Shown: positions 4,979 to 60,077 of the stretch, in pieces
Layout of the letters: the number at the start of each line of letters is the position of its first letter
How positions within the stretch are numbered: the first letter of the stretch is position 1
Source of the DNA: Siphonodentalium dalli
Lineage: Eukaryota; Mollusca; Scaphopoda; Gadilida; Siphonodentaliidae
Reading direction: 5' to 3'
Assembly (NCBI GenBank): GCA_032622095.1
Contig: CP136065.1
Span: 98,091,343-98,155,342, forward strand
DNA length: 64,000 nucleotides
Made by a program: the position numbers and the translations under genes
The notes under the pieces: model-generated
What the model was told of the DNA's origin: nothing
Database searches by the model: none
What the model saw: only the letters and a program-made list of their open reading frames with translations

Positions 4979-6128
4979 ATGGTGGACACGGTGGAAAGGC
5001 CGACTAGCCTGAAGTGACCAAAACGATGTCTAAACGATGTCTATGTGAGAAATCATTCAAGCGCAGAGGAATCTGAAAGTACACAAGAGAGTACACAGCG
5101 GCGACCGACCATTCGAGTGTGATGTCTGCGGCAAGTCATTTGGAAATTCTGGGAATCTGAAAACTCACAAGAGATACCACACCGGCGAACGTCCATACAG
5201 TTGTAATTTGTGCGAGAAAGCATTCTTTAGAAAAAATCATCTAGAGCAGCACAAAAATATTCACACAGACGACTGTCCGTATGAATGTGATATATGTGGG
5301 AAAAAGTTCAACCAGTCTAGTAATTTACTGAACCACAAACGAACTCACACAACTGATTGCCCCTTCAAATGCGACATATGTGGAAAAACTTTTAACCAGT
5401 CTGGAAATTTAAAGAACCATAGAAGTATCCACTCGGGATTAAGGCTGCATGAGTGTGATTTATGTGGTAAAGCTTGCAGTAGGTTGTCGTATTTAGTGAA
5501 GCACAAGAAAACGCACTCAGGGGAGCGTCCATATGAGTGTGAGATATGCGGCAACACATTCAAACATGAGAAGTCATTAAAATACCACAAACGGAATCAT
5601 AACGAGGAGATTGCACGACCGTATAAATGTGACACGTGTGGAAAATGTTTTAAACTAGCAGGCCACCTGACCGTTCATGAGAGAATTCATACTAACGACC
5701 GACCATACAAATGTGATATTTGTAACAAATCGTTCCGATCATCATCTACTATGGCTACTCACAAACGAACGCACAGTGATCTACGAGCGTATTCGTGTGA
5801 TTTGTGTGGGAACTCGTTCTAAACAAGTCAAGCTCGTGCATCTCACACACGGATACATACTGGAGATCGTCCATACCAATGCAAGTTGTGTGACAAGTCA
5901 TTCGTTCAGTCTGCACAGTTGGTTGTTTACATGCGGTTACACACAGGTGATCGCCCGTATCAATGTGATGTGTGCGACGCTTCATTCCATATATTCATAA
6001 ATCTAGAAACTCACTTGAGGGTTCACACAGGAGAAAAACCATATGAATGCGACATGTGTACGAAATCATTCAGCCAACAGTGTAACCTGAAAAGGCACAA
6101 GAAAATACACCTGAAAGCGATTGATTAG
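4979..6128 (+). pseudogene. C2H2 zinc-finger pseudogene, duplicate of the 20.4 kb gene
   Basis: Compared with the intact paralog at 20437-21780, the relic start ATG (4979) runs into a TGA after 12 codons, and fingers 1-2 are missing. A one-base deletion near 5070 shifts the frame between the start of finger 3 and the rest. From 5049 the frame is open and encodes the end of finger 3, fingers 4-11 and the first half of finger 12. It then hits TAA at 5820-5822, where the paralog has a lysine codon AAA. Fingers 13-15 continue in the same frame to the TAG at 6126-6128, and finger 13 has also lost its first zinc-binding histidine (Tyr). Linkers are of the TGERPY/TGEKPY type. A residual product of about 8 fingers from 5049-5822 is conceivable, but that stretch has no ATG start in a good context. 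AATAAA occurs at 6235. Confidence 0.85.
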
Positions 6129-6234
6129 TGCATACACCACAAGGCCACAAGATAAATGACTCGAAATTATTGCATTGTGAAATATAAAAATGACACATAA
6201 CACGTGTTTTGAAAAATTGCTGAAGTCATTGTCA

Positions 6235-8637: not shown

Positions 8638-8895
8638 TAACCCTTTCTATAACTGAATGAATTATCCCATTTAGTGATAAAAGTATACATTGGAATGGTC
8701 TATTATTCATTTAAAGGGATGTCCGCGTATTATAAGCAGACGGCAAACAGAAAACATATACCGGTAATACAAGAGCAGAATGCATGATTCATTTTATTTG
8801 GTAGGAATTGTTCAGATAATAAGTTCAATAAAATACATATAGCCGTTTGTTGAACTTATTGTCCGAACATTTCATAAGGGAACTACCCGTTAAAG
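8638..8895. mobile_element. Hairpin MITE, TTAACCCTTTCTATA family
   Basis: It starts ATAACCCTTTCTATA (a TTAA mutated to ATAA) and contains ACATTGGAATGGTCTATTAT. It also holds a hairpin with arms GGAATTGTTCAGATAATAAG (8804-) and its near complement at 8850-8873. It ends near CCCGTTAA (8888-8895). The same modules occur at 38.64-38.82, 57.80-58.06 and 59.83-60.07 kb. No coding capacity. Confidence 0.65.
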
Positions 8896-13105: not shown

Positions 13106-13377
13106 CGTTACACCATTAATACATAATTTGTGTTTATGAAAGTCTGGCACCCATTAGCAGTTTGTTTTCAGTACATTTTAATATTCATTGGAACGTAAAC
13201 AATTATTCGCTGACAGAAATCATGTTAATATCGCCTTTCGTTACTGGTTCCCTCGACTCAAATATTTCTCACTGCTCAATACTTATAATTAAAAAAAATG
13301 TTCTGTGTTTTGTGTCACTTCTTAATAGCATTATGTATTCTGCTATTGACAAGAAACAAAGTTGCAGTATACCTCAA

Positions 13378-13868
13378 AGGTACGGAAGGCCTTGGTGGGT
13401 ATCCTGTGAACATATTTCCACCTGTCAAAAACCGCTACAAACGAAAATAATATTCAAATATAGACATACTTTGTTAATATACAAATGAGAAATATCTCAT
13501 AAACAGTATGTTATTGTCGTAAATTTGACGATTGTTATGTAAACAAAGCATAAAAAGTTACTTTCTTGGTGTTTCTTTATATTATGATGGTAAACATAAA
13601 GAGCGTTCTTTGTTGCTCAATTCCTTATTTGGAAATAATAAAGAGCGTTTATACCATTTGTGTGTGATTAGCCAGTAGCATTGTGCTGCCTTCTATAACA
13701 CAATCAGACTCTTGTTTAGGTAAAATTTAGTAGGTCTTTATGTGAGCATGATGTTTACGCGATAGTGATCGTATATTTGAACCAAAATGTATGCGTTTTA
13801 ATATTTTTCGGTTTACGGTGTTTGGAACAAATATGAATATTTTCGACAACTAAGCCCCCCTCGTCCCT
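13378..13868. mobile_element. MITE with AGG/CCT ends and TTAA target, copy 1
   Basis: The left end is TCAA|AGGTACGGAAGGCCTTGG and the right end is AAGCCCCCCTCGTCCCT|TTAA. Almost the whole length pairs with the inverted copy at 26599-27092. Shared strings include GTGTGATTAGCCAGTAGCAT, CACCTGTCAAAAACCGC and TTTACGGTGTTTGGAACAAA. Its interior carries two AATAAAGAGCGTT motifs. The TTAA target with AG(G) termini fits Kolobok-type elements; the family assignment is inference. Confidence 0.75.
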
Positions 13869-14639
13869 TTAATATAATTAATATAACATCCCTCATCCAA
13901 TAATCTCCAAATTGCATATCTAATTTCAATCCTAGTTACACGTCACGCCGCCCCTCATCATTTGCCAATTGTACACCCTTTTTTTGCTGCTGCTGCAACT
14001 GTTCAATTTCTTTTAAAATTATTGAAAAAATGGCCCTCCCGCCCGCCGACATTTACCTCTGATTTTTTTTTATCATCGGTCCGCACCAAAATTGAGCACA
14101 CGTCCCTATATAATATACCTATTTAAACCGAGTATACACGGTGGTGTAATAGATCAACCGTTAATTTAACCGTTTAGGTAGCATATTTCCACGTATACGT
14201 TATCACGACAAATCCCTGCTGATCTGTTATTAATGAACCAAACACTTAACATGTCAACACACTCTGGCCCGCCAATGCTACAGTGTATAAACGTAACGGG
14301 GCAAATATGCACATTATATTGGCAGCTAACGAGAGCATTCATCATCAGCAATCTGCTCACCCCTTTTAGCCGATACGATAGAAACTAAACGATTTGTTAC
14401 TTCTAATTACCCGTACTTAATTACACTACTTGCGTGTTAATAAAGTACGACCCCATTACCACTAAAGGTGAAACATGGGATTTAGAACATTAATATTCAC
14501 TCTTACATAGTTCCACATTCAAGGTGTAATCGTATGTCAGTTGTAACGTTGTGAAACTGCAACCGAACTGAATTATTCTATGCTAAATAGTTCATGGCTG
14601 ACCTGATGCATGCATCTTAGTTTTCTTGTTTCAACTGTA
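13869..14639. other. Intergenic, no gene recognised
   Basis: AT-rich with a short CTGCTGCTGC tract near 13986 and T/A runs. No repeat matched elsewhere in the window by eye. Confidence 0.45.
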
Positions 14640-16045: not shown

Positions 16046-16214
16046 GCTAGAAATTCCATTAGGAGGGGGCGTCCAAGATAGAAGAAATCCCCTTTGAACT
16101 TTGAACCCGACCGAATTTCCAAGGGACTTTGAATTCTCCGACTGATGGCGCTTTTAGTCCAAAAAAGAATACCGAAAGTAGGAAAACATTTGACATTTGG
16201 TATTAATCATTTAA

Positions 16215-16465
16215 TGACAGGAGCTGTGCTGGTGCAGCATTGAGGATCCTGTGTCATGAATTTTCTTATATGGGCGAATCGCCCATAGTAGATAGCCGCA
16301 CATATATACTAGAATGCACTGTCTTAAAATTACAAGGTCAATGTAAATATTGTTAGGTCAATGTATTCTCTTATATACACGAGGCTCCCTATGGGAGACT
16401 CGCATATATAAGATAATGCATTGGCACATTCATGGTTGTTCGCAAATTTTCAAGAAGCTCCAGGG
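16215..16465. mobile_element. Paired-hairpin MITE, copy 1
   Basis: It is flanked by TTAA at 16211-16214 and 16466-16469. After the left end comes GAGCTGTGCTGGTGCAGCAT, then a degraded hairpin (16262-16320) and a better one (16360-16427; arms TATTCTCTTATATACACGAG and the CTCGCATATATAAGATAATG complement). The length of 251 bp matches the 252 bp copy at 38881-39132, which lies in reverse orientation. Confidence 0.75.
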
Positions 16466-16649
16466 TTAAAGACGCATGTTTGATTTGATATCATAAAACC
16501 ACCGTCTGTACTTATTTTATACCAGAAAACAATTATATCGAACCCATGAGTGAATAATATGAGGTTTTAATGGCCAGATATCAACTTTTAAAAGTGTTAG
16601 TAATAGCACATTTTAAATATTAGTCATTAAAGCAAAAATTCCGATGATC

Positions 16650-20436: not shown

Positions 20437-21780
20437 ATGGAGACTGTGGAAACGACAAATGCGGACATGTCCAATGCGACTCCAATGAAGTCTAAACGAA
20501 GAGAACGGCGTTTCGATTGTGATGTGTGTGGAAAGGCATTTACAAGTAAGTGCGATTTGAATAGACACGTGCACGTTCACACTGGCGATAATCCATATCC
20601 TTGCAGTTTATGTGATAAAGCTTTCAAGCAGCCAGGCGATCTCCCCGTGCACATGAGAGTTCATACAGACGAACGCCCTTATGCGTGTGATTTATGCGAG
20701 AAAGCATTCAAACAAAGTGGAGATCTGAAAGCACACAAGCGAGTACACAGCGGCGATCGACCATTCGAGTGTGATGTCTGCGGCAAGACATTTGGAACAT
20801 CTACGAATCTGAAAACACACAAGAGATACCACACCGGCGAACGTCCATACAGTTGTAATTTGTGCGAGAAAGCATTCTTTAAAAAAAATCATCTAGAGCA
20901 GCACAGGAATATTCACACAGACGTCTGTCCGTTTGAATGTGATATCTGTGGGAAAAAGTTCAACCAGTCTGGTAATTTACTGAACCACAAACGAACTCAC
21001 ACAACTGATCTCCCTTTCAAATGCGACATATGTGGAAAATCTTTCAACCAGTCTGGAAATTTGAAGAAACATCGCAGAATTCACTCGGGATTACGGCCGC
21101 ATGCGTGTGATTTATGTGGTAAAGCCTGCAGAGAGTTGGAAGATTTAGTGAAGCACAAGAAAATTCACGCGGGGGAGCGTCCGCATGAGTGTGATATATG
21201 CGGCAAAACATACGCAACTGTGAAGTCATTAACATATCACAAACGGAATCATGACGAGGAGCCTGCACGACCGTATAAATGTGATACGTGTGGAAAATGC
21301 TTTAAACGATCAGTCCACCTGACCGCTCATGAGAGGATTCATACTGGCGACCGCCCATACGAATGTGATATTTGTAACAAATCGTTCCGAACAGCATCTA
21401 CTATGGCTACTCACAAACGAACCCATAGTGATCTACGACCGTATTCGTGTGATTTATGTGAGAACACGTTCAAAACAAGACAGGCTCGTACCTCACACAT
21501 ACGGATGCATATTGGCGACCGTCCACACAAATGCAAGTTGTGTGACAAGTCATTCGCTCAATCTGCACATTTGGTGGTTCACATGCGGAAGCACACAGAC
21601 GAGCGACCGTACCCGTGTGATGTGTGCGACGCTTCGTTCCATTCATCAGCAAATCTAGAAAATCACGTGAGGGTTCACACAGGAGAAAAACCATATGAAT
21701 GCGACCTGTGTACGAAATCATTCAGCCAACAGGGTAACCTTAAAACACATAAGAAAATACACCTTGGCCCGATTGATTAG
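20437..21780 (+). CDS. 15-finger C2H2 zinc-finger protein (447 aa)
   Basis: The protein is almost entirely 15 tandem C2H2 fingers (C-X2-C-X12-H-X3-H; residues about 28 to 442) after a 27-residue basic leader containing KSKRRERR. Linkers are mostly TGERPY-like; the one after finger 9 is two residues longer. Nearly all fingers keep the Phe and Leu core. Finger 8 has Cys for the core Phe, finger 11 has Met for the core Leu and finger 12 has Arg there, so these may fold less well. Such proteins are typically nuclear, sequence-specific DNA-binding factors. No KRAB, BTB, ZAD or SET domain is present, so the effector function is unknown. The start is chosen because an in-frame TGA lies 19-21 bases upstream and the context has A at -3 and G at +4. 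The coding region is a single exon ending in TAG. The paralog at 4979-6128 is a pseudogene. Confidence 0.92.
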
Positions 21781-22747
21781 TGCATGCACTGCAAGACCAC
21801 AAGATAAATGACTCCGAATTATTTTTGCATTCTGAAATTTAGAATGACAATTTTGTGTTTTCTTCGAAGTCCACATTGTACTGAAGATCATAACCAGGGA
21901 AGTATATGTCAAGGAATGAAAAGGGAGCGAAAAATGTAATATCAATATGCTACGTTTGATCCACGTTTGAAACCAAAACCGATGTCGTTGTCAAATCCAC
22001 AACTGGAGCTTTTTCATATTCATATTTAGTTTTCTCTTTCATGTTTGTTTCAGGCAAAACAAGTGTCGAATATTTGAACTTTTAATATTTATTAAGATTA
22101 TGACTTGTCGTTGAATATATATGTTGTATATTTAATACATAAAAATAGTGAGAATTCAGAAATGGCGGTTATTCAACAATATCCGGTCAATATTGAGGAA
22201 TATAACATCTCTCGGGTTTTTTTTTATTTTGCAAAGACAATTTCTGGTGTGAGATCCCTAGTACGCATCGTGTATCGATGTTATCGTTCATTCGAGCTTT
22301 GTCTATTCGTGTTATTTCCAAATGAGCAGTACCGTTGTTATAACGTTCATATGAAATCCGCCATAGTTAAGAAGTACACGAACGTAAACCACCCTATATA
22401 AATCGACCTCATATGTATTGAGTACATCAATTATACGATTATTCAAACACGACGGCGATGTAAAATGCAGCAGCTGATTGATACTATAAGGATCACAGTA
22501 TATCTATGTTTTTCTCAAATACCAATCCTATGGGAAATGTACTGTAGCAATACTTGTGGGAACGTCCCATTTAAGCATGTACACTCATATCTATACAGCC
22601 CACTTTGTATGGCGCGTGCAAAACATGAATATTATAATATTGTGTCACGAAACATGGGTTACGAATTATAATTTACTACGATTTGTTTTATTTCAATTTA
22701 AACTTATTTGTCTGAATTTATGTATTAATATGTCTGTAAATGTATAG

Positions 22748-23033: not shown

Positions 23034-25140
23034 ATTTTATTTTATTGAACGTTCTTCATTCGGTCCCAAGACCCATATTGTCAAACATTTCAAATCGTCT
23101 ATATTCCCATGTATTCCTTTCCATCGCAGAATGAATTGCATTGTTGTTTATTTTGATTTTGTTTTTTGCATGTCAAATTTTCTTCAATAAATTGCCCCGC
23201 TTCTAATTGGGCAAATTTCCTAAAGTGTCTTCATCAGGAATTATTGTTGCTATTCTGACTTGCAATGGAAAGCAAAGGTCGTCGTCGTCGTTGTTGTTGT
23301 TAAACAATGATGTCAGTTGAAAACAATACTTTTTTTTTTTTTACGAAAACAGACTGATGATTCGTTTAGGAAATTTAGTAGTGCGAACTAAGGAAATAGA
23401 CAAAATTATCGAAGCGATATTGTGATCAGCGGAGAAAGGAACATGATGAGTCGCCACATCAAACGTCGGTAAAACATCACAAATAACATAAATAATTTGC
23501 TTACGATCAATTCCTGTGCTCTAATTGTCGATTACAAAGACATTCCGGACAAAACCATGTTGAACTTTTGCAGCGAGGCGGAGATGACTTTCAAATTACC
23601 TCCCCGGAATAGTGGGCATGCTAAAAATAGATTTCTGAATTTTCCAAGAGATAGTGGGTGTGCTAAAATTAGGAGGCCAATTATCGTGTCGTGGACGACA
23701 CTATCGATAATCGTGAATGTCAAACAACCAATCACAAGCGTGGTTAAGGCTTAGATAGTCACGTGAGATAAAATATAGCAATATATATTATACCAGTGTC
23801 ACTGATATAGTATATATAGGTATATCTGGTATTGCCCCAGGGGCCTGTGGTATTGAATTGATAAAGGACAATTTTGATCACTAACTTGATCACTAACTTT
23901 TCTACAAGATTTATCCTCATATATGGTAGCAATAAAGAGCGTCTGTGTGGAACACTGAAAAATCATACACAGCTGTCGCTTCGATACTCTGTACTTTTTT
24001 GTGTAAACATAATTTATTGCATTAACTCAGCAAAGGCACTGAGCTAAAAGTTTTTCAGCCTACAAAAGGACTCACTCCCCACAAAAATATTCACACATGA
24101 GATAGTCTTAGCATTCCATGTTAAATCTATGAGTGGCCATATAAGGAAGATCATTTCAATTTATTTTGGGTGGGGGTCATCTCAATGGATTGGGGGTTCA
24201 GGTACACAGAGGCTTCATATAACTACAATCTGATTGCATTTATCTATTAAAAAACGACGTGAAGTTACTTTCAGTTTGCAGAAGAGGTGTGTAAATTAGG
24301 TGTATATTTGTATATTATGGTTGGACTCGAACCGTGATGTCGAAGTTATTTAAGAAATGACTTGAAGATCGATTGGGGTTATTGGATTCACTCAAACTTT
24401 GTTTAATTGGTCTGCCGGTCAAAGCCAACGACCCCAATCGATATTCAAGTAATTACTTATAATCATATACATGTACATTTTAATAGAACATTAATAACAT
24501 GAACAACTTTTCAAAACTACCAGTTATTGGTTGATGAATATCGGAAACGTTCGTGTAAACCGTATGGCGATTTTTACTGATCCTCACCGGCGTGTGAATG
24601 TAGAGGGTCTATGATTATATATGATTGAACAGCCCTATATATACCTGTTGTATGTATCACATAGAGTAGTATCTCAGTAAATAGTCAGTACTAGAGTATA
24701 TCTAATCCGTATATATATAAGTACTTCGTGTACTTATCAACATATATTCATCATCATAATTTGACAAAAGCTAACAATGGCTTGTTTTATTTGATACACG
24801 AACATTATGAGTCATTGTTGATATATAACACTTTTTGGGCAATTTTATACTGTCGTTGACAATGATTTGCCTTATATTTTGACAATTACTCGATGCTGAT
24901 TACTGAAGCGCTTTTCAAGAAATGTTGTTGTTGTTGTTGTTGTTGTTGTTATTGGAATCTATTGATATGGGGACCATCGAATCGGATTGTGTACCTTTCA
25001 GTGATATGTTTTCGAATAGAAACATTATTTCTAAAAGCTAAATTAAATCAATCTGTTGCTGAATCGACATGGAAATAACAGGAAGATAATAGTGTGAGTT
25101 AATACACTCCCTGGTGTAAATATGCATGAACATCAATGTT
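23034..25140. other. Intergenic with hairpin and microsatellites
   Basis: No gene is recognised. It contains GTC/GTT trinucleotide tracts (23279-23300), a T run (23330-23342) and an imperfect hairpin at about 24345-24456 (GATCGATTGGGGTT against its complement GACCCCAATCGAT). It also has a TTG microsatellite at 24923-24950. A single end fragment of the AAAGGTACTCAATCC family, reversed, lies at 24964-25000. The open frame at 23497-23754 shows no domain. Confidence 0.5.
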
Positions 25141-25618
25141 TAAAGGTACTCAATCCGATCAGAGGGTCCCCATCTCAACATATTTCAACAACAACAATCC
25201 GATCAGAGGGTCCTATATTACTATTTCTTTGGCTTTGGGGTTAAAAAATATTTGATTCGAGTCGAGGAACCCATCAAACAAAGCTCAGAGTTATTAGACA
25301 TTGATTTTTGAAATTTGTTATTTTCTCGAGATGAGTACTAATAATTGCCCTTAACTTCGTAATCTGCTCGAGATGTGTACACCAAAACACTTTTCAAACA
25401 GACAAGGATGGATAACTCTAAAATCAAATGGTAATAATAACGCAATTTTGACTGTGTTCTGGGACAGATAGAATAGAAATAACGAAACTTCAAATATCGA
25501 TATCTGATCACCATGAGCGTTGATTGGTAGGTTCCTCGACTCGAATCAATTATTTTTTACCCCCAAAGCCAAAGAAATAGTAATATAGCACCCTCTGATC
25601 GGATTGAGTACCTTTAAA
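25141..25618. mobile_element. Long-TIR MITE, AAAGGTACTCAATCCGAT family
   Basis: Arms 25195-25271 and 25530-25606 pair over about 76 bases with few mismatches (CCGATCAGAGGGTCCTATAT against its complement). The right end is GGATTGAGTACCTTTAAA. The left side has an extra terminus copy (25141-25170, TAAAGGTACTCAATCCGATC), as though one element had inserted at, or recombined with, the end of another. The interior of about 260 bases has no gene. Confidence 0.75.
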
Positions 25619-26598
25619 TAATTCAACTTTGTGCTCCCTTATGCCGCTTTCACAGACATGAGGCTGACGTGTGCGGTAAAAATTCCACGCGGCTATCCTT
25701 GTCACATGACTTCGACCAACGCTGTACGTATATAACGTATATATATAACGTATATAATCACCAAAAAAACCCAGGAGTTTAATGAACTAGAACACTGGCT
25801 AGATGATAGTCAGGTAACTATTGGTTCGATTTATCTTCAGTGAAGTGAGAATATGGATTTTCATACACCACTGAATGTATAGATCCTAAATAAATTTAGC
25901 TCTCAGCGTTTGCTACTGTGCTTACTAGCTTGTGACTAGTGGGCTTCCACTTGTGGTACGCAGAAGTTACAGAATGAATCCGGATCGAACTCGTCTAATT
26001 TCTTCCACTTCACCCAGCCATCTTCATGTAGTTGTGATGCTGACTGGACCATCTGTTTTAACTGCGTCAGCCGCAACCACGTGAACGCGCCAGTGATACA
26101 TGTATGGTTTGAAACGTTGCGCCTAACCCGATAGCCACATGCTTCGGCCGTAGGTCTGCATGTGGAAGCATATTTAACTCAACATTTCAGCATTGTGCGG
26201 TGTATAATGATATAAAGTCGGGAAACCAGCAAGGAAGTGACAAGGTTCAGGCGGAATTAATCAAGCATCGTTTGATCATAAATACGAACATTCTCATTTG
26301 TTCAATCGCATGAATTAACGGTCACACAACAATAAACTGAACATATGACCTCAGGGGCGGGTTTAATTACTACTCTACATAATTAGTAGTTAGAAAATAT
26401 TGGTATATTAATAGCTGATTATTATAAAACCGCGATATGGGAGTAGTATAACGCGATTTTATTGTTCGGTAGCCATCAGAAACTATGAATACGTCACCGG
26501 TTCCTGTTGAGAAGATGAATAAGTACGACTACTGCGTGTGACGGGTCTCTTATTCGGGGCTGTCGAAACATCTTTGTTAGGGAATTTATGCAAATTAA
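25619..26598. other. Intergenic, no gene recognised
   Basis: A TA-rich repeat (ATATAACGTATATA, three times) is at 25730-25760. No domain-bearing frame was found. The right edge is the TTAA (26595-26598) that forms the target site of the next element. Confidence 0.45.
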
Positions 26599-27092
26599 AG
26601 GCACGTGCGGCCTTAGTTGTCGAAAATATTCATATTTGTTCCAAACACCGTAAACAGAAAAACATTAAAACGCATACAGTTTCGTTCATATATACCATGA
26701 CCATCGCGTAAACAGCATGTTATCACAAAGACCTACTATGTTTTACCTAAGCAAGAGCCTGCTTGTGTTATAGAAGACAGCACAATGCTACTGGCTAATC
26801 ACACACAAATGGCAGAAACGCTCTTTATTAGATCCATATAAGGAATTCACCAACAAAGAACGCTCTTTATGTTTACCATCATAATATAAACAAACACCAG
26901 AAAAGTTACTTTTTAAGCTTTTGTTTACACAACACAGGTCAAACATATGACAATAAGATACTGTTTATGCGATATTTCTTATTTGTATACGGACAAAGTC
27001 TGTCTAAATTTTGATTTTCTTTCTGTTTGTGGCGGTTTTTGACGGGTGGAAATATTTTCACAGCATACCCACCACCAAGGCCAACCGTACCT
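26599..27092. mobile_element. MITE with AGG/CCT ends and TTAA target, copy 3
   Basis: It is flanked on both sides by intact TTAA (26595-26598 and 27093-27096). The left end is AGGCACGTGCGGCCTTAGTT and the right end, read inward, is AGGTACGGTTGGCCTTGGTG, so the terminal repeats match at 16 of 22 positions. The 494 bp element is in the opposite orientation to copy 1 at 13378-13868 and aligns with it over nearly its full length. The open frames in it are not conserved in the partner copies. Confidence 0.82.
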
Positions 27093-27096
27093 TTAA

Positions 27097-28057: not shown

Positions 28058-30090
28058 TACAGACTTACAAAACAGTATGTGAGTCTTTCTAAAGTATTTA
28101 CAGCCATTCTAAACAATAGAATAGTTTCTTTTTCAGATGATCATGAACTAATTTAAAAAAATCAGACGGGATTTAGAAAATACCACTCAACCGTAGATAA
28201 CATATTTGTTTTACACAGTGTAACCAACCTATACCTAAAAAGTGGGAAAAAATTATATTGCACATTTATTGATTTTAGAAAAGCTTTTGATACCATATGG
28301 AGGGATGCAATATGGCTGAAATTAGCCCAATGCAATATCAACGGAAAAATACTTAATGTCATTAGAAATATGTACGGTAAGATAAAAACATGTGTAAAAG
28401 ACAGTCACAACATTTCAGACTTTTTTGTTAGTAATGTGGGACTTTTTCAAGGGGAAATAATGTCACCTTTTTTATTTTCCTTGTACATTAACGACATCCA
28501 AGATTTTATGAATGATTATGCAATACAAAATTTGAGTTATTTAGATGAACTATATATTGAAAATGTGGGATGTTACATAAAATTGTTTTGTATTCTTTAT
28601 GCAGATGACACAGTATTAATGTCTGATACAGAAGAAAATATGCACCGTTCTCTCCAAGCATTTGCAGATTATGCAGATGCTTGGAAGTTACAAGTGAATA
28701 CAAAAAAAACTAAAGTCATAATATTTAGTAATAAGTTACCCAAACCAATTCCAACGTTCAGATATCGAGGTCAAGAATTCGAGACAGTTAAAGAATTTGT
28801 ATATTTGGGAGTAACCTTTTTTTACAATGGAAGATTTTGCCAAAATTTGAAAAAAATAGTTACAATTGGCACAAGAGTAATGTATGGATTACTAAACAAA
28901 GTGAGATCTCTCAAGCTTCCAATCGATATTATGTTAAAACTATTTGACTGTATGATAGTACCCATCCTATTATATGGGAGTGAAATTTGGTGTCACGAAA
29001 GAACTAAAATTATTGAATCGCTTCATCTTAAATACTGCAAAATTATAGGATATCTGAAAACAAGTACACCAAATTATATGGTTTACGGTGAATTTGGCAG
29101 ACACCCTCTGTCCATTGAGATAAAGTGCAGAGCACTATCTTACTGGTCCAAACTACTATCACACGATGGCTCAGAACTTGCAAAAAAAATATATATTCTT
29201 GTTAAAGAATTGGATCACAACTCTGATGGCTCCTTCAATAGCCCATGGCTATTTTTTATTTCTAAAACACTGAAAGAACTTAACATAGAAAGAGTATGGA
29301 CAAATCAGTCAGGTTTAACAAAGGCTGAAATTAGAAATATAAAATCAGAGCTTATTGAGCGATACACAACAGAACTATTTACTGAAATGCAGAATGCAAA
29401 CTCATCTAGAGCACGTTTTTATATGAGTATTAAAACGAGGCCGGGCATGGGTCGCTATCTAAGTTCCTTACCGGCTCACTTAGCAAACACTTTGCTAAAA
29501 TTTAGAACCGCAAATATAAAACTGCCTGTCGAATATACAAGATGGAAATCTAAATCTGTGGATAATGGTGACACAACCTGTGATATTTGCGGTGATGGCA
29601 CGGGTGATGAATACCATTTTATTATTATTTGCAAAGAACTACAGATAATTCGAGCAGACTATATCCCGAAATATTACTGGGAGAATCCTACGAAAGAAAA
29701 ATTCGAAAGACTATTATCTTTGGAAAATCAACTATTACTGAAAAAAGTTAGTATTTTTATCAAATTGGCATCAAGAAAATTAACATATGACTGAGCCGAT
29801 TATTCCAAATTGAAAAACGTGTGATTAGGTGCATTATTTATATCCGTGAATAATTATTTCAGGCAAAATATTATGATAATGATATTATAAAGGATTAAAT
29901 TATAATATAATATATATAAGATATTATAATACATATTACGATATATCTATACATTTATCATATTATATATTAATATATGTATGATTGTGTAACAATTGTT
30001 TTTTGTGACCTATTGTAAATATTGTAAATATTGTATATATGTTATAGCATGTTCCGCCTTAATTGACGACTTTGCAATAAACAATCAATA
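28058..30090 (+). mobile_element. 5'-truncated LINE with near-intact reverse transcriptase
   Basis: From 28091 the frame reads KVFTAILNNRIVSFSDDHEL. It then meets a single in-frame TAA (28154) and stays open to the TGA at 29792-29794 (about 545 codons). Reverse-transcriptase motifs are present: FIDFRKAFD (28265-28291, motif A with catalytic Asp), QGEIMSPFLFSLYINDI (motif B region) and YADD (28598-28609, catalytic Asp pair). The C-terminal region has CDICGDGTGDEYHFIIIC, a Cys/His cluster typical of this non-LTR group. The endonuclease domain and ORF1 are missing, as expected for 5' truncation. The AT-rich 3' UTR ends near AATAAACAATCAATAA. It could be expressed only by read-through and is probably not autonomous. 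I would place it near the jockey/CR1-type LINEs, without certainty about the clade. Confidence 0.88.
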
Positions 30091-37862: not shown

Positions 37863-37999
37863 TTAAGGTGTCGCTGTCAGTTATTCAACTCTCACAAAAA
37901 TATCAGTTCCTCATAGCTGAAAATGTGAAAAAATTTCGTATACTTAACATAATGAGGTTTAGGTATTCATTTTCAACGGCCACCATCGATCCAAATTTC

Positions 38000-38195
38000 A
38001 GCTGCGCTGGTACAGCATTACATATCATGTGCCAGTGCATACTCTTATATATGCGAGTCTTTCATATGGAGCCTCGCATATATAAGAGAATGCACTCGGT
38101 ACAAGGTCATGGTAAATTTGCTAAGCCAATGTATTCTCTTATATATGCGAGGGTTCCTTTGAGAGACTCGCATTTATAAGAGAATGCACTGGCAC
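38000..38195. mobile_element. Paired-hairpin MITE, copy 2
   Basis: It starts CAGCTGCGCTGGTACAGCAT. Hairpin 1 is 38030-38099 (CTCTTATATATGCGAG and its complement around TCTTTCATATGGAGC) and hairpin 2 is 38125-38194. The order and spacing match copies 1 and 3. Terminal TTAA sites are not certain in this copy. Confidence 0.75.
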
Positions 38196-38639
38196 AGGAT
38201 ATTTCTCAAAATTTCACGTGTATAGTAAATTGGAATCATTTCTGAACTGTGGCTAAGACTTTATAGGAGAATAATTCATAGCTCAGAAGTAGGTGACTTT
38301 TTTTTTAACAAAATTAATTCTAAAATCTAAATCAAAAACAAATATGAAACTGAATATTCATAGAAAACTCTAAACCGTGAAGCTAATGCTTTTATCTAGT
38401 ACACGCATTTTTTAATTTGTTCAAATAGATTCTTTTTGCCTGGATAGTTGTTTTTCTTTACAAACAGGAAGTGTCGTTTGAAAGAAGTGTTAATATTTCT
38501 TTTTATAGCCTATTTGCCTGAAAATGTATAAATGCTTGCCCTAGGTAAGCCGTCTAGCTTTTCAACGAATCCATCAGATATACTGGTATCTAGTTCTGCA
38601 ATATTAAGATAACCCGTTCTATACTAAATACTATTTGTG

Positions 38640-38820
38640 AGTATTTTCCTTAGGATATGTTCATATAATAACATCGTTTTGTTGAACTTATTATCGGAAC
38701 ATTTAGTTGTCTGATTTTATAACCTGCACATTTCTCCAAATTAATATTAAACCATTCCAAAGTATACTTCTATAACTGAATGGGAGATTCCATCTAGTAT
38801 AAAACAGTTAAAACAAATTG
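38640..38820. mobile_element. Hairpin MITE, TTAACCCTTTCTATA family (degraded)
   Basis: GATATGTTCATATAATAAC..TTGTTGAACTTATTATCGG.AACATTT is the hairpin, and CCAAAGTATACTTCTATAACTGAATGG is the opposite-end module. Orientation is reverse relative to 8.6 kb. The right end is near CAGTTAAAA (38804-38812). Confidence 0.55.
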
Positions 38821-38880
38821 GCAAGACTGAAATAGGCCATATCTGCGTCACCTTAAATATCTCAAGAGATACAAGTTTAA

Positions 38881-39132
38881 CCCTTCCATGACTGGAGTTT
38901 TCTGAAGTAGCAACACCCTGTGCCAATGCATTCTCTTATATATGCGAATCTCCAACGGGGAGCCTCGCATATATAAGTGAATACATTGGCCTAACAATAT
39001 TTAAATTGATCTTGTAAGCCAGTGCATTCTCTTATATATCCGAGGCTCTCTATTGGAGAATCGCAAATATAAAAGAATGCAATGGCAAATGATTTTTAAT
39101 GCTGCACCAGCGCAGCTCCCATCAAGAAAGTG
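38881..39132. mobile_element. Paired-hairpin MITE, copy 3 (reverse orientation)
   Basis: It is flanked by TTAA at 38877-38880 and 39133-39136. Hairpins are at about 38920-38990 and 39018-39085. Arms carry TGCATTCTCTTATATATGCG. GCTGCACCAGCGCAGC (39101-39116) is the mirror of the GCTGCGCTGGTGCAGC-like module in copies 1 and 2. The length of 252 bp is the same as copy 1. It lies about 210 bases beyond the stop of the PRDM8-like gene and could fall within its 3' UTR. Confidence 0.8.
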
Positions 39133-39345
39133 TTAAAGTATCTATCCGGTTACATAACTTGATATTTATCTCCATTTGTTCTGAATTATGGTACTGCGAT
39201 GTCAATAAAATAATAAGGAAATACATGTACCGTACAATCAGAATGGTAACACGTGACTTGTAATCGTCACGAGGTAACGACATATTCGCCGGTGATGATT
39301 TGGAATGTACCCGTGATAGCAAACTACCCATACAAATGTCTGATG

Positions 39346-43111: not shown

Positions 43112-43493
43112 TTAACCCTTTACCCAACAGAACGGCCATGTGCCAATGCATTCTCTTATATATGCGAGTCGACCATAGGTCGCCTCGCATATATAAGAGA
43201 ATGCATTGGCTTAACATATTAAAAATGATAAAAATGTAAGAAAAAATGATAAAATTGTTGTAAGAAAAAATGGTAATGCATTCTCTTATATATGCGAGGC
43301 GACCTATGGTCGACTCGCATATATAAGAGAATGCATTGGCACAGGGCATAACTGTAACCATCACAATGTGGTCAATGAACCGGTTCCAATGATATCCATA
43401 TTTGTATGGTGTTATTGAGACAGACCGAAGATAATTTAGGCTGTTGAAGCTTTATTTGGGCGTTTTTGGCCGGTTTGTTGGGTAAAGGGTTAA
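43112..43493. mobile_element. Paired-hairpin element with 25 bp TIRs and TTAA ends, copy 4
   Basis: The ends are TTAACCCTTTACCCAACA and its complement at 43475-43493, flanked as TTAA on both sides (43112-43115 and 43490-43493). Hairpin 1 (43142-43210) has 33 bp arms with one mismatch and an ATA loop. Hairpin 2 (43275-43340) is its inverse, so the left arm of hairpin 1 can also pair with the right arm of hairpin 2. A 60-base A-rich spacer separates them. A further 130 bases lie right of the hairpins. TTAA plus CCC..GGG ends fits piggyBac-type elements; the assignment is inference. Frames crossing this region are not genes. Confidence 0.85.
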
Positions 43494-49808: not shown

Positions 49809-50397
49809 TAGGTTCATATTGGTTCTGAAATAGGCCCATAGTGAACATATATCCGTTATTCCGTTGAATGGCATGGGCCACATCGATGACACATCACCAC
49901 GGTAAATAGGCTTGTATAGAACCTATTGCCCCAATAGTGCCATATTGGACTTTTTCGTATTGAAATATGCTCATAATGAACCTACTTCGACTTCCAAATA
50001 GGTTCATATTGAGCTTATATATGATCCATGAGAATATGATGTAATGATGACCATGTGTTGGCGTTGTCTGGATTATGGTGTCCCAGTATACTTATGAGTG
50101 AGATTTTACCAGGTGCCACCATAATGTATACGTTATCTCTTTCTAATCTAAATGGATTCTTCCAGTCATTTAAAAAGTGTACATTGAAATGGCCTATTAT
50201 TGATTTGGTGGGATTTGTAGGTGATAAAATCAGACGACATAAAAAAAAGCGCCACCTTAACCCTTTCTATACTATATGGATTCTATATATAGGAGACATA
50301 GCACAGTAGCAATGTTATATTTTATGCCTCCGAAACATGCCGAGCATTGCTCTTTGAACATGCTTGGGACTATACAACACACCAGGCGCCTATTTTT
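49809..50397. other. Degenerate AGGTTCA tract and MITE fragments
   Basis: Positions 49809-50015 are a decayed extension of the tandem array. Positions 50180-50205 (ACATTGAAATGGCCTATTAT) and 50257-50275 (TTAACCCTTTCTATACTA) are modules of the 8.6/57.8 kb MITE family. The palindromic SINE pair that follows is inserted next to, or into, this remnant. Confidence 0.5.
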
Positions 50398-50701
50398 AGA
50401 AGCAAATTTGATATTTGAGACAGTGCAAATTTTTTTGGGATTGGGTGGGATTAGAACCCCGGCCCATGACGGCGAGCGCGCATTGCGACTCAAAGTCCGA
50501 CGTCAATACCACACGGCCACCGAAGCGACCCCAAAAAAGGAAGCGGCCATTCGAGCTTCCTTTTTTGTGGTCGCTTCGGTGGCCGTGTGGTATTGACGTC
50601 GGACTTTGAGTCGCAATGCGCGCTCGCAGTCATGGGCCGGGGTTCTAATCCCACCCAATCCCCAACAAAATTGCACTGTCTCAAATATCAAATTTGCTTC
50701 T
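50398..50701. mobile_element. Head-to-head pair of tRNA-like SINE units
   Basis: Left arm 50398-50544 and right arm 50555-50701 (147 bases each) are reverse complements with about five mismatches, around the 10-base loop GGCCATTCGA. The right arm, read forward, has a tRNA-like body: GGTGGCCGTGTGGTATTGAC (box A-like), CGGACTTTGAGTCG (anticodon-arm-like) and GGGGTTCTAATCCCACCC (box B and T-arm). It most resembles a type II (Ser/Leu) tRNA. A tail CACTGTCTCAAATATCAAAT follows. Translations of this region are non-genic. Confidence 0.85.
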
Positions 50702-52674
50702 ATATGGATTTTTCCAGTCAATTGTAAAAGTATATTATTAATTACATACAGATATTTTACTTCTCATGTCGTTAGGTTACGTTAAACTCCATGCAGGGTT
50801 TACCTCCCTTGATGACTCGGTAAGACCGCTGCTACCGGCGACACTTTACCCACATTTGGTGGACTTCCGCGATATTAAGGTATATACTAAGCGAGCAGAG
50901 CAACCTGCTTCCCTTGTTAATCATACAAAATATCGATTAAAATTTGTATAATTTCGTATATTGCGAAAATCGTGAACAAAACTACTGCTCTGATCCTCCA
51001 TTCCGTCATTAAGTTTTTAGTGCGGGAATTGTTCTCAAAGCACATAGGAAATTTGACTTTCGGGCGATCGGATGTCGCCATTTTTGTTGGAAAACTCCGC
51101 GCTAAATAAGAAAACCACAGACTGGTAACCAGCCGGTATCAGAGTCAGAAAGGAAGTGACTGGTGCGCTCTGGTAGAGATTGAGGTTAGGTTACGATTCA
51201 TTGTATACGCATGCATGTTGCCATTCATATTCATATGGTTTTCTATCACGAAATTCACAAACGAAAATACCATTTGTTGGGGGATTATAGTAGAAACCCA
51301 ATGCTGTATCGCTGGTGTGGTCTCAATTTGGTAACATCATCCTGTACTATTTGAGGGTTTTGGTGTTATAAATGTTTCGCTAGAAACTGTCGCGTTCCCC
51401 TTATCTAAGTTGGAAGTTTCTATATGAACTGCATGTGAGGACGTAGTGGTCAGATGTAGCCAGGGACTTCCACACTTTCCTATGTCATATGTGACAAACG
51501 CCCTAATTTGACAGCGTTGACAGGGAATTCAGTTTTGGAATCATATCGTCCGGAATCGCAGACGAGCGCTATCGGATGCCGTCTTGCTACGTGCTTAATT
51601 GAAACGTGACAATACAAAAACTGTACAGACACTGTGGAGTATTCCCTATTGTAAGAGACTCTGACAGGTTCTATTTTCCACGACGGAAGGCCATACAGGG
51701 ACGTAGTTGGTCTCCGTTGGGGGATTCTCTAACTTGAAATGCATTCCCTTTTAACCAAACAAAACTTCCAAGTTCGAAAAATTCAAGCGTTCCAATTGTT
51801 GGAAATATCCAACCTGTCACTCCATATAAGGTTGGAAAATATCAAACTGATGGGTACTTTAGTCCAAACTTTTGATTAAGTGGGAACATTAGAGACCTTT
51901 CGAAAAATCACTTTTACGATTACGGATAGGATATATTGTCCGATAATAGTAACGTGGATACCATAACAATTTACATACGAAGGTTAATTGGTGAGACGGC
52001 ATATGTCCCACTATATTCAGTTAAACATATATTTGATGGAAAAAGTAATGTATGTCTCTTTCAGATCCCATGTTCTTATCCGTGTGCTACACAGCACGGA
52101 TAATGTTAGAGCGTCCCCAAGCAGGACCGGTGGAATATGCTTGACAGATCTGCACACAATTAAACTGAATGGGGAATATTTCGTCCCACGTAAGATATTT
52201 CCATATCCGTAACCGTGATTTTGCGAAATTTCTCTACTTCCGACTGTTTATCTATTAACAACAAATTCCCCACTAATTTGAACTCGAAAATATTGACCAA
52301 AGTTGTTTGAACATATTGAATTAAAGTTGGGGAGCCCCCATCGCCACGGCATAGTGAACGCCGATCACGTCAGGTGAGTGACACGTATATGATGACATCA
52401 TAGGGAATTATTCACAAATCAACGTCCATGTAAAACATACTGAATTATCATTGGAGTACAATAAATTGACATCTGCCTCGACACATTGCAGTTGGTAGCA
52501 AGATATAGAGTATGGGCGAATCGGCCCAACGAAAAGTGTGCGAATCGGAAGTGAAACGATATATCAACATCGTAGACCTATAAAGCAGCTGCTTTCGTCT
52601 TTACGATCATACTCGATATAAACGCTCTTTATTATTACCATACCGGGAAGAGACTAACAATGAACGCTCTTTAA
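50702..52674. other. Intergenic, no gene recognised
   Basis: TTCCAAC/GTTGGAA motifs at 51740-51890 resemble those at 19.7-19.9 kb. CGCTCTTTAT..TACCATACCGGGAAGAGACT (52623-52655) is a fragment of the 44.3 kb family end. It abuts the TTAA target (52671-52674) of the next element. The frame 51988-52212 has no domain. Confidence 0.45.
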
Positions 52675-57803: not shown

Positions 57804-58057
57804 CATGAACATTTCTATACTATAAGTGTATTCTCCCACTCAGTTATAACATTATATATTGGAATGGTCTATTATTCACATGGGTGGGTGTTCAGAAAAC
57901 ACATACAGTCGACAGACAATGGACGTGAGGAAGGAGTCCTATCTACTGGAGGGAAATGTTCAGATAATAAGTTCATCTATGGTCGTTTGTTGAATTTATT
58001 ATCTGAACATTTCCTAAGAGATAACTACTAATCAGTGAGTATTTAGCATAGCACGGG
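57804..58057. mobile_element. Hairpin MITE, TTAACCCTTTCTATA family
   Basis: The left end GAACATTTCTATACTA is diverged and the right end GCACGGG is followed by TTAA at 58058-58061. It contains TATATTGGAATGGTCTATTA and a strong hairpin: GGAAATGTTCAGATAATAAG (57952-) with its complement ending at 58014, one mismatch in 24. Confidence 0.75.
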
Positions 58058-58061
58058 TTAA

Positions 58062-58494
58062 TATATAATTATGTATATATAGATATAGGAAATTCACGGT
58101 ATGATGTGCAGTGTTGTCGCAGTCAAGCCTGAGAGTCTCTTGTAATGTCGGCTGTATGTTTCTCTGTTGATGAAGAAGGATCAGATCATATCGCATATTA
58201 AATTGACAATTTCCTTTATCTCATTAACCACGAATAAAATTTGACAAAAATCCGAAGATCTAAAAACGATGGATAGGAATTGACTGTGTAAAATATATTC
58301 AACCAAGTACAAATTCTATCTTCGATTGGTAATGGAGGCTGTTTGTGCCTATTTCACATACTAACGGATTGGCGCGTTGCGCACCGACCATGATGGTGAT
58401 GATGACGACGACGACGATGGTAATTATGCTGCTGGTAGTGATCATGGTGATGACGACCACAACGATGATGATGATGTTAATAATGTTCATAATA
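58062..58494. other. Intergenic, (GAT/GAC)n-rich right end
   Basis: Positions 58389-58480 are GATGATGACGACGACGATGG-type trinucleotide sequence leading into the minisatellite. It translates as an Asp-rich string, but there is no evidence that it is a gene. Confidence 0.5.
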
Positions 58495-59327
58495 ATGATT
58501 GTTTGGTGTGTATGAATATATCAGGGTTTAACGTAGTTTCAGAAGCTAGGCTGTATCAGGCCGACGACGATGATGATGATGCTAATCAATGATTGTTTGG
58601 TGTGTATGACTATATCAGGGTGTAACGTAGTTTTAGAAGCTTGGCTGTATCAGGCCGACGACGATGATGATGATGCTAATCAATGATTGTTTGGTGTGTA
58701 TGAATATATGAGGGTTTAACGTAGTTTTAGAAGCTAGGCTGTATCAGGCCGACGACGATGATGATGATGCTAATAAATGATTGTTTGGTGTGTATGAATA
58801 TATCAGGGTTTAACGTAGTTTTAGAAGCTAGGCTGTATCAGGCCGACGACGATGATGATGATGCTAATCAATGATTGTTTGGTGTGTATGAATATATCAG
58901 GGTTTTAACGTAGTTTTAGAAGCTAGGCTGTATCAGGCCGACGACGATGATGGTGATGCTAATCAATGATTGTTTGATGTGTATGAATACATCAGGGTTT
59001 AACGTAGTTTTAGAAGCTAGGCTGTAACAGGCCGACGACGATGACGATGATGCTAATCAATGATTGTTTGGTGTGTATGAATATATCGGGGTTTAACGTA
59101 GTTTTAGAAGCTAGGCTGTATCAGGCCGACGACGACGATGGTGATGCTAATCAATGATTGTTTGGTGTGTATGAATATGTCAGGGTTTAACGTAGTTTTA
59201 GAAGCTAGGCTGTATCAGGCCGACGACGATGATGGTGATGTTAATAAATGATTGTTTGATGTGTATGAATACATCAGGTTTTAACGTAGTTTTAGAAGCT
59301 AGGCTGTATCAGGCCGACGACGATGAT
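58495..59327. repeat. 94 bp minisatellite, about nine copies
   Basis: The unit contains GCCGACGACGATGATGATGA, TGCTAATCAATGATTGTTTG, GTGTGTATGAATATATCAGG and GTTTAACGTAGTTTTAGAAG. CCGACGACGA starts occur at 58561, 58655, 58749, 58843, 58938, 59032, 59126, 59220 and 59314, so the period is 94 with one 95. Units are about 93-98% alike. The period is not a multiple of 3, so it is not coding. A lone relative, GAGTTTAACGTCGTTTTAGC, is at about 60200. Confidence 0.95.
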
Positions 59328-59580
59328 GCTGGTCATGGTGGTTTTGTTGCTATGTGTACATAATTATTGTAGATTAGTTATGTTATTTATATCATGTCCC
59401 GCATACATAATAATATTGTGTCTGAGAAATAAACAAATAATACCAGTATACATGGAGGCAATTGCAGACAAATGCTAGTTGTATAATTACTTGTGATAAA
59501 GTTTGGCAGATTACTGTTGCGAAATGTGATGAAAATAGATGGCATTGAAGTGCGAAATCTCCTTAATGTCCTTAATCACA
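59328..59580. other. Intergenic, no gene recognised
   Basis: It contains AATAAACAAATAATACC near 59428 and no other signal. Confidence 0.4.
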
Positions 59581-59797
59581 TACAGTAATGCCCTAATTAA
59601 TCGACTGCTTAACCACATCATAATTATGGGTAACTTTTCAGGATTTAGTCGGAAATATGGCTTGTTGCCATTCATCGGAAAGCTCTCGGGGAGAGCTTTC
59701 CGATGAATGGCAACAAGCCATATTTCCGACTAAATCCTGAAAAGTTACCCATAATTATGATGTGGTTAAGCAGTCGATTAATTAGGGCATTACTGTA
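59581..59797. repeat. Perfect palindrome, 107 bp arms, 3 bp centre
   Basis: Positions 59581-59687 and 59691-59797 are exact reverse complements around GGG (59688-59690). Pairing stops abruptly at both outer edges. There is no coding content. It could be a very young inverted duplication, a MITE with extreme arms, or an assembly or library fold-back artefact. Confidence 0.95.
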
Positions 59798-59831
59798 GTA
59801 TCTTAACTGTCATTCATTCGCCCTCTGCTAA

Positions 59832-60073
59832 CCCTTTCTATACTTAAGCATCGTTGATGAGTAGTCATCCCATAGGAAATGTTTAGATAATAAGTTCAAC
59901 AAACGACACGTTTATTATCTAAACATTTCCCTCAATATATATATGGCTACTTCTACACTTTTGTTTATCTGACGTCAGCTTGTATCACCTTAACATCCAT
60001 TCAAATGAATACTAAATCATACCAATGTATACTTTAATAACTGAATGGCGGAACCAATTTAGTATATAAATGG
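59832..60073. mobile_element. Hairpin MITE, TTAACCCTTTCTATA family (reverse)
   Basis: It is flanked by CTAA (59828-59831) and TTAA (60074-60077). The left end is CCCTTTCTATAC and the right end, inward, is CCATTTATATAC. It contains GGAAATGTTTAGATAATAAG with its complement 40 bases on, and CCAATGTATACTTTAATAAC. Length 242 bp. Confidence 0.75.
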
Positions 60074-60077
60074 TTAA

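Follow-up and report, generated by a model that had tools for sequence, protein, structure and literature searches.

A sequence body with two hairpins recurs four times within the window, the whole 64,000-nt stretch of DNA analyzed here, and raises the questions of what kind of element carries the hairpins and whether their stems are maintained. The copies are located at 16.2-16.5 kb (A, reverse strand), 38.0-38.2 kb (B, reverse strand), 38.9-39.1 kb (C, forward strand), and 43.1-43.5 kb (D, forward strand), with strands assigned so that TTAACCC stands at the left. They are probably piggyBac-like MITEs that are non-autonomous and fall into two lineages, one with A, B, and C and the other with D. 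The lineages have the hairpin module in common and differ in their ends. The features are as follows:

43112-43493, forward strand: copy D, whole element from TTAA to TTAA, 374 bp between the TTAAs, 30-nt inverted ends
43142-43210, forward strand: D hairpin 1 (RNA fold z -14.3)
43272-43340, forward strand: D hairpin 2, inverse of hairpin 1 (RNA fold z -12.3)
43349-43489, forward strand: right part of D, approximately 140 bp, with little or no likeness to A/B/C
38877-39136, forward strand: copy C, whole element from TTAA to TTAA, 252 bp between them, inverted ends 12/17
38922-38990, forward strand: C hairpin 1 (RNA fold z -9.8)
39018-39086, forward strand: C hairpin 2 (RNA fold z -6.1)
39097-39118, forward strand: right-hand motif of C with the small palindrome GCTGCACCAGCGCAGC
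38000-38206, reverse strand: copy B, homologous body without recognizable TTAA ends, 82% identical to C
38125-38193, reverse strand: B hairpin 1 (RNA fold z -9.8)
38031-38099, reverse strand: B hairpin 2 (RNA fold z -8.8)
16203-16469, reverse strand: copy A, whole element from TTAA to TTAA, with an inner TTAA (16211-16214) that was the boundary in a preliminary description
16357-16425, reverse strand: A hairpin 1 (RNA fold z -8.5)
16252-16323, reverse strand: A hairpin 2, decayed (RNA fold z -1.6)
16223-16241 and 38001-38019, reverse strand: right-hand motif with GCTGCACCAGCGCAGC in A and B

The bodies of A, B, and C were 75-82% identical across approximately 208-210 columns in BLAST, with B and C reaching 82% across 209 columns. 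The right-hand motif holding GCTGCACCAGCGCAGC is common to these three copies and absent from D. All four copies contain two hairpins of approximately 69 nt, and the arm GCCAATGCATTCTCTTATATATGCGAG was present as 5' and 3' arms in each of them, as the preliminary description had reported. Its spacers of 25-65 bases were also recovered, the inter-hairpin gaps measuring about 25 (B), 27 (C), 33 (A), and 61 (D). By RNA folding with 200 shuffles each, seven of the eight hairpins folded better than every shuffle (z -14.3 to -6.1); for the decayed hairpin 2 of A (A2), 14 of 200 shuffles folded equally well.

Among the 25 of 51 inverted repeats listed, D shows a 73-nt inverted repeat with 99% identity (43135-43207 / 43275-43347), each arm of which is a hairpin in its own right. 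The arms of hairpin 1 (43142-43174/43178-43210) are 33 nt long and those of hairpin 2 (43275-43304/43308-43337) 30 nt, both with 97% identity. With DNA parameters, D preferably folds into a single long stem instead of two small stems, at -116.9 kcal/mol, while its shuffles averaged -37.0 and none of 100 was as good. The inverse orientation of hairpin 2 had been presented as special to the 43.1-kb copy. It does occur there, but B and C are alike in this respect, with 79% (38022-38202) and 80% (38921-39087) identity to their own reverse complements in BLAST; copy A gave no BLAST match to its own. Since the second hairpin is the first one inverted in B, C, and D, the module represents a palindrome duplicated in inverted orientation and not two independent hairpins.

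A search of the window for hairpins with a 24-bp stem, at most 3 mismatches, and a loop of 3-15 returned 12, five of which belong to the paired-hairpin family, against none in each of eight dinucleotide-preserving shuffles. The remaining seven are other palindromic sequences, which indicates a genome rich in palindromes. A palindrome at 59581-59797 has 107-nt arms with 100% identity and a 3-nt loop, starts with TACAGTAATGCCC, stops with GGGCATTACTGTA, and has the appearance of a young palindromic element between TA flanks. At 50397-50702, downstream of a TTAACCCTTTCTATAC end at 50257, 148-nt arms are inverted with 97% identity around a 10-nt loop; by eye, the arm resembles what we take to be a tRNA-like SINE head.

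TTAA was found at both ends of three of the four copies (A, C, and D). Copy B has none at its ends, the nearest being at 37944 and 38305. The TTAACCC 7-mer has only 14 occurrences in the window on both strands, and A, C, and D each start with TTAACCCT at the same end relative to the module. The inverted ends of D are 30 nt long with 93% identity (43109-43138/43467-43496) and extend 3 bases past the TTAA. Inside the TTAA, 15 of 17 bases are inverted in D and 12 of 17 in C; among the 1171 TTAA pairs lying 150-500 apart within the window, these values were matched by 4 (D included) and 7 (C included), respectively, and the best-scoring pairs also include other palindromes and repeats. The inverted ends start with CCC at both ends of D (CCCTTTACCCAACA), at one end of C as CCCTT with CACTT at the other, and at one end only of A.

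The preliminary reading as a TTAA transposable element was supported, with corrections to its bounds: those of C (38877-39136) and D (43112-43493) stand, both with inverted ends, but B lacks TTAA and the end of A at 16215 is doubtful. At its former boundary (the TTAA at 16211), A has 3 of 17 inverted bases, and its inverted ends at the corrected boundary are weak as well. The corrected boundary was obtained by aligning the end of A to C, which leads to the TTAA at 16203-16206; 10 of 17 bases past AGCTCC match, a value equaled by 933 of 100,000 random windows. Beyond TTAACCCTT, no alignment was obtained between the ends of D and the ends of A and C, and the module is what places all of them in one family.

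The copies are short, dispersed, and free of coding sequence, with 252 bp in C, 374 bp in D, and four copies per 64 kb, as MITEs are. No Pfam match to a transposase was found in the 14 of 20 window ORFs of at least 110 aa that were scanned, which fits a non-autonomous element; that neither a transposase nor an autonomous partner was found also counts against the piggyBac reading. According to excerpts of PMC10813416, conservation among the 5' motifs of piggyBac inverted repeats is highest for CCCTT, and the usual target duplication is TTAA. Also in favor of the MITE reading is a second family in the same window, which has TTAACC ends and a single internal hairpin. No match to the exact arm 21-mer or to a gapped hairpin pattern was returned from virus and prokaryote contig collections, nor to the 18-mer of the D end from viral contigs, nor to D from phages; such searches say little about an animal-like host.

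The second family was located at 57810-58061, 59829-60077, 38600-38811, and 8638-8886, with a part at 50133-50243. Its ends are like TTAACCNTTTCTATACTAAAT and degenerate in most copies, and its hairpin, around GTTCAGATAATAAGTTCA, occurs in four of the five places. A repeat at 25139-25618 has perfect 29-nt inverted ends (TTTAAAGGTACTCAATCCGATC...) with 132-nt inverted arms inside, and the stretch at 26595-27096, with 87% likeness to 13376-13873, has ends of a similar TTTAAAGGTACG type. Dispersed and tandem repeats are numerous in the window, among them a tandem array at 58490-59328 (94-bp unit, 8.9 copies, 95% matches). Reading frames for C2H2 zinc fingers at 5042-6195 and 20693-21849 are 88% alike in DNA, and a reverse transcriptase frame at 28157-29794 (Pfam RVT_1, E 8e-31) is likely a LINE; with these frames and its many repeats, the window has a eukaryotic, animal-like look. 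A tRNA scan of the window returned none.

Conserved arms with variable loops had been taken as a sign that the stems themselves are maintained. Within single copies this was not borne out: 17 of 189 arm pairs are broken, compared with 17.3 when 3' arms are dealt at random. The 189 pairs come from seven hairpins, A2 being dropped as its 3' arm is out of register; with A2 kept, 28 of 216 pairs are broken against a random expectation of 28.0. In the seven hairpins, 20 arm changes are one-sided and two are two-sided. One-sided changes at position 8 (3' arm of hairpin 1) and position 5 (5' arm of hairpin 2) are common to A, B, and C, meaning that mismatches were passed on through amplification. Compared with the A/B/C majority, the arms of B changed less than its other positions (5/105 vs 13/82, p 0.013), which hints against wholly neutral decay, while those of A and C are no less changed than elsewhere (p 0.33 and 0.34). 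Gene conversion in the old copies was considered by grouping arms by copy and rejected, as the differences showed no clear grouping: mean arm differences were 4.3-4.4 within a copy, 4.2 for the same arm across copies, and 4.5 otherwise, with the 3' arm of A2 out of register.

Small-RNA production had also been suggested, and in favor of microRNA-like or siRNA precursors are the hairpins of approximately 69 nt with stems of 27-33 bp and RNA z-scores to -14. This modeled fold is the whole support for such a role. The stems decay one-sidedly and their broken pairs equal the shuffled expectation, no Rfam match was found in the window at gathering scores, and palindrome formation by itself also yields perfect stems, so that retention of the hairpins as small-RNA precursors is very improbable.

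Between the lineages, a different pattern appears. In the arms, D agrees with the A/B/C majority at 101 of 105 positions, compared with 50 of 78 elsewhere (Fisher p 1.3e-8). The alignment is anchored on the arms, and columns without a majority or with a gap were dropped from it (3 of 108 in the arms, 8 of 86 elsewhere). Outside the arms, agreement was 20/29 in the tips, 15/26 in the spacer, and 15/23 right of the module. As D is a single sequence, few independent events lie behind this contrast and the tip changes that follow. The tip of A1 is CTCCC-ATA-GGGAG and that of D1 is CGACC-ATA-GGTCG, with the same stem in D2; relative to A1, C1, and C2, two tip pairs are changed on both sides and yet still paired in both D hairpins. 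Together, the conserved arms and the paired tip changes mean that maintenance or self-correction may have acted in active elements. The arm conservation may be due to selection, to self-correction of the palindrome, or to exchange of the module; the paired tip changes would be given equally by stem selection or by arm-to-arm copying.

By analogy with piggyBac transposases, whose C-terminal domains bind palindromes located just within the transposon ends, the hairpin pair might be a cis-acting module with arms that the transposase or a host factor would bind and that would be under selection in active copies. The arms are kept between lineages while apex, spacer, and right part are not, and hairpin 1 begins 26 nt from the left end in D and 41 nt from it in C. 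PMC11707139 describes 19-bp palindromes in piggyBac ends and, in piggyBat, palindromes to which two C-terminal domains of the transposase bind. The hairpins here are far longer than these palindromes, to which they are likened by description and not by sequence, and hairpin 2 sits 149 bp from the right end of D. Pairing is not kept in single copies, although binding would require sequence rather than pairing, and self-correction could equally keep the four arms of an element alike. Such a role is less likely than not. A broader version, in which a portable quadruple-arm palindromic module is common to two TTAA lineages, appears somewhat more doubtful still. Its 27-nt arms would be near-constant by selection, for example as four putative transposase sites, and the tips, spacer, and ends would turn over with tip changes staying paired.

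Module exchange could also take the form of a separate foldback-like unit that entered two unrelated TTAA elements or passed from one to the other. The likeness of D to A/B/C starts near TGTGCC and stops near GGCACA, and the ends and right part of D are unlike those of A and C. However, the inter-hairpin spacer is still partly common (15/26), and weak likeness persists right of the module, where 14-17 of the first approximately 24 aligned positions are alike. Inspection by eye showed no target duplication flanking the module, and the window has no free-standing copy save possibly B, which has the right-hand motif of A and C. On balance, such a unit is unlikely.

In the preferred reading as piggyBac-like MITEs, a short ancestor whose ends were TTAACCCT(T) would have carried the inverted duplication of a palindrome and been moved into TTAA sites by a transposase encoded elsewhere in the genome. 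Two lineages would have resulted, a presumably older one with A, B, and C and another with D, whose ends are fresh and near-perfect. Template switching during replication inside the palindrome, which we infer from symmetry alone, might keep the arms of an active copy alike and would also lead to the paired tip changes of D; after insertion, copies would decay regardless of pairing. An autonomous piggyBac partner is predicted to carry the ends TTAACCCTTTACCCAACA or TTAACCCTTCCATGAC.

Should the arms be under selection, the family would show that piggyBac-like elements without genes can have internal recognition sites able to outlast changes of their ends, a point relevant to the capture of transposases by MITEs. 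If they are not, the family is a compact case of transposon palindromes that are symmetric when young and decay one-sidedly when old.

Among known systems, the TTAA-specific MITEs of mosquitoes and Xenopus are short, TTAA-flanked, and piggyBac-related, a likeness of general features and not of sequence; a literature search returned no paper on those of Xenopus. Foldback elements likewise have long inverted repeats that fold back, but in the family described here the long inverted repeat is internal and not terminal, that of D (43135-43347) lying inside the 43112-43493 element without reaching its ends. The palindromic MITE-like repeats of Anopheles gambiae are also gene-less palindromes, which make up 6 of 32 clusters there, whereas the text of PMC3212995 makes no mention of TTAA or hairpins, and no paired palindromes were seen in the parts covered. 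Paired palindromes in TTAA MITEs were not described in the parts covered of a limited set of papers including PMC11707139, PMC12479628, PMC10813416, PMC9942856, and PMC3212995, and five short repeat sequences of the window, searched as text, had no match in papers. A resemblance in kind is also seen to piggyBac-like elements and their MITEs, for which excerpts of PMC10813416 give a TTAA target duplication, CCCTT-type ends, and inverted ends of about 15-30 nt; the family here differs in having no transposase and in its long paired internal hairpins, which are absent from that description. Within the limited literature covered, the paired-hairpin family represents a new family of a known kind.
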